A DNA stretch of 64,000 nt, from positions 372,001-436,000 of the forward strand of contig NYMS01000048.1 of NCBI GenBank assembly GCA_002529455.1, read 5' to 3'. Below, one piece after another: positions 19,187 to 47,038 of this stretch; within the stretch, counting starts at the first letter, position 1; each line of letters begins with the position of its first letter. The notes under the pieces are model-generated. The model did not search any database. It worked only from the letters and a program-made list of their open reading frames with translations, and had not been told where the DNA came from. This stretch comes from Glycomyces fuscus. Lineage in GTDB: Bacteria > Actinomycetota > Actinomycetes > Streptosporangiales > Streptosporangiaceae. Position numbers and translations under genes: made by a program.

Positions 19187-20377
19187 ATGGGAGGGCGCAC
19201 GTCCTGCTCGCTTCGGGTGGCATGGGACGACGGACTCACGGCCTACGACTTCGGCCCGCAGCACCCGATGGCGCCGATACGCGTCGAGCTGACCATGGCG
19301 CTCAGCCGCGAGCTCGGCGTCCTGGACGCGCCGGGGGTCGGGCTCCTGGACGTCGAACCCGCCTCGGACGAACTCCTGTCCCTCGTGCACGACCCCGCCT
19401 ACATCGAGGCGGTCAAGCGCGCGGGCCGCACACTGGAGCCCGACGACGCCCACATGCTGGGCACCCCCGACAACCCCGTCTTCAAGGACATGCACGACGC
19501 CGCCGCGCTCATCTCCGGCGCGTCCGTGGCCGCCGCGCGGGCCGTGTGGAGCGGGGAGACCGCGCACGCGGCCAACATCGCGGGCGGCCTGCACCACGCC
19601 ATGCGCGGCAACGCCTGGGGCTTTTGCGTCTACAACGACCCCGCCCTGGCCATCGCCTGGCTGCTGGAGCAGGGCGCCAAGCGCATCGCCTACGTGGACG
19701 TGGACGTCCACCACGGCGACGGCGTCCAGAACGCCTTCTACAACGACCCGCGCGTGCTCACCATCAGCCTCCACGAGTCCCCGGCGACCCTGTTCCCCGG
19801 CACCGGCCAGGCCTCCGAGACCGGCGGCCCGGACGCCGAGGGGTACGCGGTCAACGTGGCCCTCCCCGCGGGCACCGGCGACAACGGCTGGCACCGCGCC
19901 TTCGACGCCGTCGTACCGCCGCTGCTGCACGAGTTCCAGCCGGAGATCCTGGTGACCCAGCAGGGCTGTGACACCCACGCCCTGGACCCGCTCGCCAACC
20001 TCACCCTGAGCGTGGACGGCCAGCGCCGCGCCTACGCCGAGCTGCACCGGCTCGCCCAGAAGACCGCGGGCGGCCGCTGGCTGCTGTTCGGCGGCGGCGG
20101 GTACGGGCTCGTACAGGTCGTCCCCCGCGCCTGGACCCACCTGCTGGGCGAGGCCGCGGGCCGCCCCATCGACCCCGACACCGAGACCCCGCAGCGCTGG
20201 CGCGACTTCGTGCGCCAGCGCACGGGGGAGCTGGCGCCGCTGTACATGACCGACGGGCGCGAGGTCGTCTTCGACCACTTCGTGGACGGCTACGACCCGG
20301 GCGACCCGGTGGACCGGGCCATCCACGCGACCCGGACCGCAGTCTTCCCCAGCCACGGGATCGACCCCAGCCTCTAG
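19187..20377 (+). CDS. acuC: AcuC-type deacetylase (histone deacetylase superfamily)
   Basis: A 396-residue zinc amidohydrolase of the class I histone-deacetylase fold. In bacteria, AcuC removes acetyl groups from lysines of acetyl-CoA synthetase and so turns it on. The tandem active-site histidines are in GGLHHAM (about residues 133-139). The zinc site is in YVDVDVHHGDGVQNAFY (about 167-183), with the Asp-x-His pair, and the later QQGCDTHALDPL supplies the second Asp. GGGGYGL carries the usual Gly-rich loop with the catalytic Tyr. The start MGGRTSCSLRVAWDDG with a GGGGG site fits the family. There is no acetyl-CoA synthetase nearby. Confidence 0.9.
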   Translation: MGGRTSCSLRVAWDDGLTAYDFGPQHPMAPIRVELTMALSRELGVLDAPGVGLLDVEPASDELLSLVHDPAYIEAVKRAGRTLEPDDAHMLGTPDNPVFKDMHDAAALISGASVAAARAVWSGETAHAANIAGGLHHAMRGNAWGFCVYNDPALAIAWLLEQGAKRIAYVDVDVHHGDGVQNAFYNDPRVLTISLHESPATLFPGTGQASETGGPDAEGYAVNVALPAGTGDNGWHRAFDAVVPPLLHEFQPEILVTQQGCDTHALDPLANLTLSVDGQRRAYAELHRLAQKTAGGRWLLFGGGGYGLVQVVPRAWTHLLGEAAGRPIDPDTETPQRWRDFVRQRTGELAPLYMTDGREVVFDHFVDGYDPGDPVDRAIHATRTAVFPSHGIDPSL

Positions 20378-20726
20378 GGCGTGTTTCTGCGTGAACCCCC
20401 TCCCCGCCCCGGTCCGTGTCCGGGTGCCCGGACCGAGCCCTCCCGAGCCGGGGCCGGTTCGGGGGAGAGGATTGCGGGGCACCTCCGAGCCGGGCGCCGG
20501 GGCGCACGGATCCCGTGTCAGCAGGGGCTCATGAGGCTGCGGACGGCTCGGGGGACGGCTCCCATAACACCCCGGTGTCGACCGGCGTGAATTCCGGAGG
20601 AGCCGCGCGTGTCGCGCCCGAAGCGGGTAGGACAGAGGTTGAATACCGGGCGAACAGGAGCAGGCGCCATGGTGGCCGCCCAGCGTGGCGCACGCTCGCT
20701 GCGCAGACGAGGAAGGGGAGCGCCAG
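20378..20726. other. 349-base intergenic stretch
   Basis: No gene seen. CGGTCCG (20410-20416) pairs with CGGACCG (20429-20435), a plausible acuC terminator. A second imperfect repeat (CCCTCCCGA with TCGGGGGAG) follows. Confidence 0.4.
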
Positions 20727-26518: not shown

Positions 26519-26653
26519 GCTTTGGGGCTCCGCTTCGCCCCGTGTTCGGGCGCCCTTCGGCGCGGGAACCTTCGGCGCCTGAGGCGGGTTCACTCGTTCC
26601 TCGCGAACCCGTCTCCGGCACCTCCAGAACCCCGCGGGCGCCCGAACGTGCTT
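26519..26653. repeat. 135-base structured repeat unit (ccsB side)
   Basis: This single unit is related to the three tandem units at 45980-46384 and has the same length. Shared blocks are CTTTGGGGCTCCGCT, TTCGCCCCG, GCGGGAACCTTCGGCG, CTCGTTCCTCGC and CCTCCAGAACCCCGC. Outer arms GTTCGGGCGCCC (26544-26555) and GGGCGCCCGAAC (26636-26647) are perfect complements. Inner arms CGGGTTC (26585-26591) and GAACCCG (26605-26611) enclose the CTCGTTCCTCGC loop. The head of a second unit follows from 26654 at exactly 135 bases. Confidence 0.8.
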
Positions 26654-45560: not shown

Positions 45561-45612
45561 GCGCTCCCGGCACGCCGCGCGGGCGTGCCCAGCAGCCAGG
45601 AGGAGGGTGACC

Positions 45613-45972
45613 GTGGAGCTGTACACACCGATCTTCGTGCTCGGCGGGATCGGCGCCGCGTTCGTCGTGGTGTCGATGGTCGCCGGGGCGCTCCTGGGGC
45701 CCAAGCGCTACAACCGCGCCAAGATGCAGGCCTACGAGTGCGGCATCGAGCCCACGCCGCAGCCCGCGGGCGGCGGCCGATTCACCGTCAAGTACTACAT
45801 GACGGCCATGATGTTCATCGTCTTCGACATCGAGATCATCTTCCTCATCCCCTGGGCCGTGCACTTCGACGCACTGGGCTGGTTCGGACTGGTCGCGATC
45901 GTCCTCTTCCTGGTGAACGTCTCCATCGCCTACGCCTACGAGTGGCGCCGCGGAGGCCTCGAATGGGACTGA
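45613..45972 (+). CDS. nuoA: NADH-quinone oxidoreductase subunit A
   Basis: A 119-residue membrane subunit of complex I with three helices (about residues 6-28, 60-82 and 87-107). [43 protein letters not shown] holds the conserved Cys loop and the acidic helix-two residues of the quinone-site region. The GTG at 45613 is preferred over the GTG at 45607 because the AGGAGGAG site is correctly spaced for the former. It is separated from nuoB by 520 bases of tandem repeat, unlike all later nuo genes, which overlap or nearly touch. Confidence 0.95.
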
Positions 45973-45979
45973 ACAGTAT

Positions 45980-46384
45980 TTCTTTGGGGCTCCGCTCCGC
46001 TTCGCCCCGGGGCCGGGCGCCTCAGGGGCGGGAACCTTCGGCGTCTGCCGTGCCTGGCTCGTTCCTCGCTGGCGGCACGTCCGACCGCCTCCAGAACCCC
46101 GCCGGCGCCCGGGCTTCTTTGGGGCTCCGCTCCGCTTCGCCCCGGGTCCGGGCGCCTCAGGGGCGGGAACCTTCGGCGTCTGCCGTGCCTGGCTCGTTCC
46201 TCGCTGGCGGCACGTCCGACCGCCTCCAGAACCCCGCCGGCGCCCGGGCTTCTTTGGGGCTCCGCTCCGCTTCGCCCCGGGTCCGGGCGCCTCAGGGGCG
46301 GGAACCTTCGGCGTCTCCCGTGCCTGGCTCGTTCCTCGCTGGCGGCACGTCCGACCGCCTCCAGAACCCCGCCGGCGCCCGGGC
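45980..46384. repeat. Three tandem 135-base repeats between nuoA and nuoB
   Basis: Units 45980-46114, 46115-46249 and 46250-46384 are nearly identical; differences seen are GG/GT at the GGGCCGGG site of unit 1 and CTG/CTC in unit 3. Each holds outer arms CCGGGCGCC and GGCGCCCGG and inner arms CGTGCC and GGCACG around the conserved CTCGTTCCTCGC. A degenerate head of a fourth unit follows to about 46420. Since 135 is a multiple of three, long open frames run through the array; they are not genes. Confidence 0.92.
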
Positions 46385-46492
46385 TCCCTCGGGGCCTCCG
46401 CTTCGCTTCGGCCCGTGTGCGGCAGACCACCGCGACGAGGCGCCGACCGCAGGACACACCCCGCAGCCCAGCCCGGAGGAGGACCACAGCTG

Positions 46493-47038
46493 ATGGGACT
46501 CGAGGAGAAACTGCCCAGCGGCATCCTGCTCACGACCGTCGAGCAGGTCGTGGGCATGGCACGCAAGAGCTCCATGTGGCCCGCCACGTTCGGCCTGGCC
46601 TGCTGCGCCATCGAGATGATGTCCGTCGGCGGCCCGCACTACGACCTGGCCCGGTTCGGCATGGAGAAGTTCGGCGCCACCCCGCGCCAGGCCGACCTGA
46701 TGATCGTCGCCGGGCGCGTGAGCCAGAAGATGGCCCCCGTCCTGCGTCAGATCTACGACCAGATGCCCGAGCCCAAGTGGGTCATCGCGATGGGCGTGTG
46801 CGCCTCCAGCGGCGGCATGTTCAACAACTACGCGATCGTCCAGGGCGTGGACCACATCGTCCCCGTCGACATGTACCTGCCCGGCTGCCCGCCGCGGCCG
46901 GAGATGCTCCTGGACGCCGTGCTCAAGCTGCACGACAAGGTGCAGAACACCAAGCTCGGCGCCCACCGGGAGCAGGAGATCACCGAGAACGAGGAGCGGA
47001 TGCTCCGCCGTTCGCTGCCGCTGGTGAGCAAGGACTGA
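46493..47038 (+). CDS. nuoB: NADH-quinone oxidoreductase subunit B
   Basis: A 181-residue peripheral-arm subunit carrying the last iron-sulfur cluster, N2. The ligands are in [10 protein letters not shown] (paired cysteines), [10 protein letters not shown] and [16 protein letters not shown]. The ATG at 46493 has a GGAGGAGG site. It begins a compact run in which each following gene starts within a few bases of the previous stop. Confidence 0.97.

Follow-up and report, generated by a model that had tools for sequence, protein, structure and literature searches.

Three nearly identical units of 135 nt lie between nuoA and nuoB in the stretch of 64,000 nt analysed here, which we call the window. 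What are these units, and how did they come to lie there? An initial annotation, made from the sequence, had described them as a structured element and had offered three guesses: a non-autonomous mobile element, an RNA element for processing or attenuation, or an array of DNA-binding sites.

Repeat units between nuoA and nuoB

As annotated, the three units follow each other head-to-tail at a spacing of 135/135, with 97-100% identity to the reference copy (Table 1). The array starts with the remnant of a left end, which is preceded by CTGA and not by CTAG, and a right end with CTAG is absent behind it. The GGAGGAGG-type ribosome-binding stretch of nuoB is intact. The covariance model also recovered the diverged unit that had been noticed behind a gene called ccsB. 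Slightly overstated was the remark that all other nuo junctions overlap or nearly touch: the gap between nuoC and nuoD is 43 nt by the ORF list.

Table 1. Positions of the array, its neighbouring genes and a further copy within the window
Feature	Position	Strand	Basis and remarks
nuoA	45607..45972	+	ORF list; TGA stop (45970-45972) directly 5' of the element
Left-end remnant ACAGTATTTC	45973..45982	+	Sequence, alignment with other copies; complete copies have GCAGTGTTTC
Unit 1	45980..46114	+	Repeat search, fold, covariance model
Unit 1, P1 hairpin	45986-45990/46004-46008	+	
Unit 1, closing stem P2	46013-46021/46104-46112	+	
Unit 1, inner stems P3-P5 with loop CTCGTTCCTCGC	inside 45980..46114	+	
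Unit 2	46115..46249	+	Repeat search, covariance model
Unit 3	46250..46384	+	Repeat search, covariance model
Partial fourth copy, first hairpin only	46391..46414	+	Sequence, repeat search
nuoB	46493..47038	+	Sequence, ORF list, tblastn of nuoB in relatives
Diverged single copy near putative ccsB (name from the initial annotation)	26522..26650 (approx.)	+	Model match C43:398522-398650, alignment

Further copies had been predicted and were found in large number. A BLAST search with one unit found 51 matches, including fragments, in the source genome, and 67 were recovered with a covariance model based on 71 copies, with no more than 84 candidates scored in any genome. Matches to the model were present in 37 of 40 genomes of the genus (Nocardiopsis), two of which carry at least 81 and at least 82. 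Beyond the genus, samples of the order and the class were searched with stricter filters, so that the following counts are lower bounds: at least 38 of 150 genomes of the order sample had matches (30 from the genus itself and 8 from five other genera within its GTDB family), as did at least 11 of 296 genomes of the class sample, one of them outside the family (E 4e-5). The exact core pattern was found in named records of Nocardiopsis, of a Nocardiopsaceae strain and of one MAG labelled Proteobacteria (57 stretches).

A fold with compensating changes

The fold was assessed on an alignment of copies from several species. From 97 full copies, 73 remained at less than 95% similarity, and two with an internal insertion were excluded, leaving 71. 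One copy served to draw a structure of 39 pairs (stems P1-P5 plus three loop pairs), which was then counted on all 71. The pairs form in 90.1% of the cells, a figure that leans towards the drawn structure, as the comparisons with slid and shuffled alignments do to a lesser degree. Changes on both sides were observed in 30 of the 39 pairs. The covariation score was 0.302 compared with 0.125 after shuffling (reached by 0 of 500 shuffles), and the slid controls did not exceed 0.067, so that the covariation expected in the initial annotation is borne out, as is its observation that the arms of the two kinds of unit differ and still pair. RNAalifold alone returned 18 pairs. The folding energy of one unit is unremarkable (z -1.46 as DNA and -0.45 as RNA), and folding with DNA parameters recovers the covarying structure of unit 1.

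Outside the genus, 46 distinct copies from 36 loci were compared. These copies were aligned by the covariance model and thus lean towards its structure; 88.2% of their cells pair, 35 of the 39 pairs have changed on both sides, and the covariation score is 0.508 versus 0.141. In the other genera the letters of the stems differ, yet most of the copies shown still have the loop CTCGTTCCTCGC. In the alignment of the 71 copies, the internal loops and the terminal loop do not pair and are conserved, with at least 90% agreement at many positions. The interior is a multi-stem fold whose shape and loop motif have been kept while the letters of its stems changed.

The complete element and its insertion site

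The 135-nt unit had been taken for the element itself. It is a real unit of repetition, but not the whole element: a complete copy comprises 179 bp between two CTAG. Complete copies read CTAG-GCAGTGTTTC...CC-CTAG and carry short inverted repeats at their termini; many others are truncated or lack one end. In the flanks of copies outside arrays, the left end reads (C)TAG-RC-R-GTGTTTC and the right end, in many copies, AACAG-RCC-CTAG, so that both fit the single pattern CTAGRSNSTGTTTC. At 0-1 mismatch this pattern has 36 listed sites in the source genome, all of them with an intact CTAG. At two mismatches it was not commoner than its reversed control (289 vs 340), and the analysis of the ends was confined to the 36 sites. 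An exact element-like end, CTAGGGCGTGTTTC, also lies over a TAG stop codon at 20374-20387 of the window; behind it no folded core was recognised.

Insertion can be seen directly at atpC, which is the single clean pair of filled and empty sites, other comparisons being too diverged. The source genome has CTAG-179 bp-CTAG at this site, whereas two relatives (G017 and G029) have a single CTAG with both flanks matching; in three more (G019, G002 and G024) the match is on the side of atpC. The TAG stop of atpC is kept in all five. One CTAG in the empty site and two in the filled site indicate a target-site duplication, compatible with 4-bp CTAG or with 2-bp TA. The element is short (179 bp inside), dispersed (67 matches in the genome) and without coding capacity for a transposase, as are MITEs. 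We therefore consider it probable that it is a MITE-like, non-autonomous element and that the nuo unit is its interior, which agrees with the guess of a non-autonomous mobile element in the initial annotation.

Three side observations concern related sequences. A second MITE-like family of ~167 bp has related ends, CTAGGCCGTGTTCCCTGGATC...GGAACACTCCCCAG, and a different interior; it occurs in the source genome at L160, L163, L164, L165, L166, L174 and L175 (contigs C21, C8, C11, C2, C38, C61 and C32), and its ends resemble those of other IS5-family elements (L183, L184, L187). A repeated module of about 50-90 nt, CGTCGCCCGCCACC...CTCAACGGACGC...GCGCAG, lies within the first hairpin or the terminal loop of element copies (L013, L047, L050, L169, L170 and L171, as well as L122, the nuo junction of G004). 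Finally, a diverged copy near 7354 of L113 starts, as judged by eye, beside an apparent tRNA gene 3' end.

Ends in common with IS5-family insertion sequences

In the source genome, two inward-facing ends enclose a 938-bp insertion sequence (IS) with DUF4096 and DDE domains. Its transposase belongs to the IS5 family (NCBIfam); the reading frame is split in two, and the second frame scores below the cut-off. The IS is flanked by CTAG and lies at the TAG stop of a gene. Related ISs in other genomes end in CTAG-GCACTGTTTTTTGG and CTAG-GCGGTGTTTTTTGA. When 15 left ends of the element, hand-picked and in part from truncated copies, were compared with the ends of the ISs, 13 were more similar than shuffled sequences (p <0.05) and two did not resemble the IS ends (p 0.09 and 0.10). 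In the best case, 13 of 13 letters after CTAG are identical to the end of an IS. Judging from the common ends and the common target, the element would most probably be mobilised in trans by an IS5-family transposase. The co-occurrence of the two is no argument here: IS5-like matches were found in 38 of the 40 genomes of the genus, G033 and G005 have such matches without the element, and G004 has 10 matches to the element without an IS5-like one.

Copies behind stop codons

An in-frame stop codon lies 11-21 nt upstream of 50 of 72 full copies that are first in their array, in several genomes, and is lacking in the other 22. These stops are TAG in 33 cases (25 as CTAG) and TGA in 17. The share of TAG is higher than among the ORFs of the window (33 of 50 vs 11 of 46, p 4e-5). 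In an earlier, overlapping count, the upstream gene was in sense orientation in 64 of 70 first copies and in antisense in 4. Outside the genus, a sense stop was found within 120 nt in 19 of 36 copies and within 30 nt in 11. The tetranucleotide CTAG is depleted tenfold in the 64-kb window, with 17 occurrences observed and 165 expected. By heuristic ORF calls, five of these are at stops, 11 are intergenic and one is coding. Copies are found directly behind stop codons because their CTAG target is rare and nearly confined to stops and intergenic DNA. The TGA cases may be due to a relaxed target or to later change. Together with the 22 first copies that lack such a stop and the low share of near stops outside the genus, they speak against the CTAG reading, as does the nuo array itself, with CTGA on its left and without a right end.

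The nuo junction in relatives and the origin of the array

Orthologues of nuoA are present in all 40 genomes of the genus with a nuoA match, and 30 loci were examined. A plain junction of 55-82 nt, including the stop codon, is found in 23 of them, so that the gap between nuoA and nuoB as such is normal in the genus. The copy number at this site differs between relatives: one copy is present in G029 and three in the source genome. In G004 the copy carries an insert, in G017 there is a single diverged copy, and G024 and G002 have remnants of the element. In G034 (L144), an inverted remnant starts precisely at the stop of nuoA, which is TAG there, and suggests that the nuo site has been hit more than once. 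Probably the stop codon of nuoA was the insertion site of one copy, whose interior later multiplied in tandem to three units, presumably by slippage or unequal exchange. Arrays at other loci have other periods, 173 nt in L028 and 134 nt in the five copies of L091, and these differing periods point to repeated and independent tandem duplication. As a side observation, one genome of another genus (G106) contains 87 model matches, many of them in tandem at roughly 130-145 nt (L215, L235, L241).

Taken as a whole, it is likely that we are dealing with a MITE-like element of Nocardiopsis and related genera that has a CTAG target, IS5-family-like ends and a folded interior. Such an element explains dozens of 3' ends of genes across many genomes of Nocardiopsis, and its CTAG target explains why the copies lie directly behind stops.

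Alternative explanations

Strong covariation, and a hairpin close behind a stop codon, could also stem from a cis-acting RNA in the 3' UTR that is selected at nuoA-nuoB and elsewhere. As folded mRNA it would influence the upstream gene through attenuation, processing, stability or translation. The excess of sense over antisense upstream genes (64 vs 4) fits this explanation, and E. coli REPs at most 15 nt from a stop codon stall ribosomes, according to the accessible text of PMC12306157; by analogy, an effect on translation at nuoA-nuoB is possible. The mismatches within the helices argue against an RNA. Over the 39 pairs of the 71 copies there are 57 G-T and 111 A-C mismatches and hence no preference for G-U on either strand, whereas 24 distinct tRNAs of the same genome, taken from 30 loci and counted over their acceptor and T stems, have 16 G-T and 0 A-C (p 1e-7 on the sense strand, 0.003 on the antisense strand; since the copies are related, these values serve as guides only). 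This control supersedes a smaller one of 10 tRNAs with 11 odd cells (2 G-T, 3 A-C). Outside the genus, 47 G-T and 40 A-C were counted over all pairs; restricting the count to the 32 best pairs gives 23 and 38. In addition, no terminator-like site lies in 45900-46600, a search of the window against Rfam at gathering thresholds found nothing, and the 23 nuo loci with a plain junction lack the array. We regard an RNA element, including the processing or attenuation element guessed at first, as very improbable. From the mismatch pattern, it looks as if the fold matters as DNA rather than as RNA. This is a caution for RNA discovery, where very strong covariation can arise from a mobile DNA element; the count of G-T against A-C can separate the two cases. 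As for the fold alone, the covariation might reflect not selection but arm-by-arm correction by template switching in near-palindromes, with the core as passive filler. Compensated pairs far exceed intermediates (GC 37, AU 31 and GU 0 in one pair), and both kinds of mismatch are below the numbers under independence of the columns (57 vs 169 for G-T and 111 vs 201 for A-C). On the other hand, correction should erase mismatched loops, whereas the internal and terminal loops stay unpaired and conserved and CTCGTTCCTCGC recurs in other genera next to different stems; correction as the sole cause is rather doubtful. It is tentatively proposed that this is an ancient, IS5-like non-autonomous family whose interior may be a selected single-strand or cruciform DNA fold, presumably a protein-binding site for spread or tandem amplification. 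If so, the helices keep Watson-Crick pairing across genera, and the fixed loop CTCGTTCCTCGC and the internal-loop motifs form a putative site read by a protein. A fold with such a cross-genus loop poses the question which protein reads it.

The hairpin beside each end, the conserved loops and the DNA-like complementarity would also suit a single-strand element of the IS200/IS605 or REP/RAYT type, in which a Y1 transposase recognises subterminal hairpins, insertion takes place 3' of CTAG and the right CTAG is borne by the element. CTAG on both sides is likewise possible through such an insertion if the element ended in CTAG, and REP termini with GTAG often supply a TAG stop to flanking genes, as stated in the accessible part of PMC3733652. 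The subterminal hairpins had suggested Y1 as the conserved mobiliser, a candidate that was dropped: PF01797 was detected in 13 of 40 genomes of the genus but not in the source genome (the E. coli control being positive), nor in the copy-rich genomes G031, G060, G011, G018, G028 and G017. Moreover, each end is the inverted repeat of the other, and both match those of the IS5 family. Mobilisation of this type is therefore improbable, and the MITE-like element with IS5-family-like ends is preferred. An integron attC-like reading, with structure behind stop codons, was also considered.

Comparison with known systems

The accessible text of a small open-access sample of the literature on Nocardiopsis repeats and MITEs, IS5 MITEs with CTAG, REPs, the letters of the loop and covarying MITEs contained nothing on this element. 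Among described systems, MITEAba12, with its co-resident ISAba12, is similar in being ~0.1-0.2 kb long, without a transposase and dispersed in many copies, and in having terminal inverted repeats that are common to the co-resident IS only at the ends (PMC6382973, accessible part). It differs in its 9-bp duplications, in contrast to the CTAG target found here, and in that no interior fold of this kind is noted in that part of the paper, whereas here covariation of the core extends over several genera and tandem repetition occurs. Tandem repetition inside a MITE is known, by description only, from a Porphyromonas gingivalis MITE with an internal minisatellite (accessible text of PMC4596501). REPs are likewise palindromic and dispersed, some lie close behind stops and some supply TAG; according to the accessible parts of PMC12306157 and PMC3733652, however, they are 20-40 bp long and read by Y1, whereas the present element has ~179 bp, inverted-repeat ends and a source genome without Y1. 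The IS5-family ISs of Nocardiopsis (NF033580, PF13340, PF01609) have the ends and the CTAG target in common with the element, but carry a transposase and lack the folded core.
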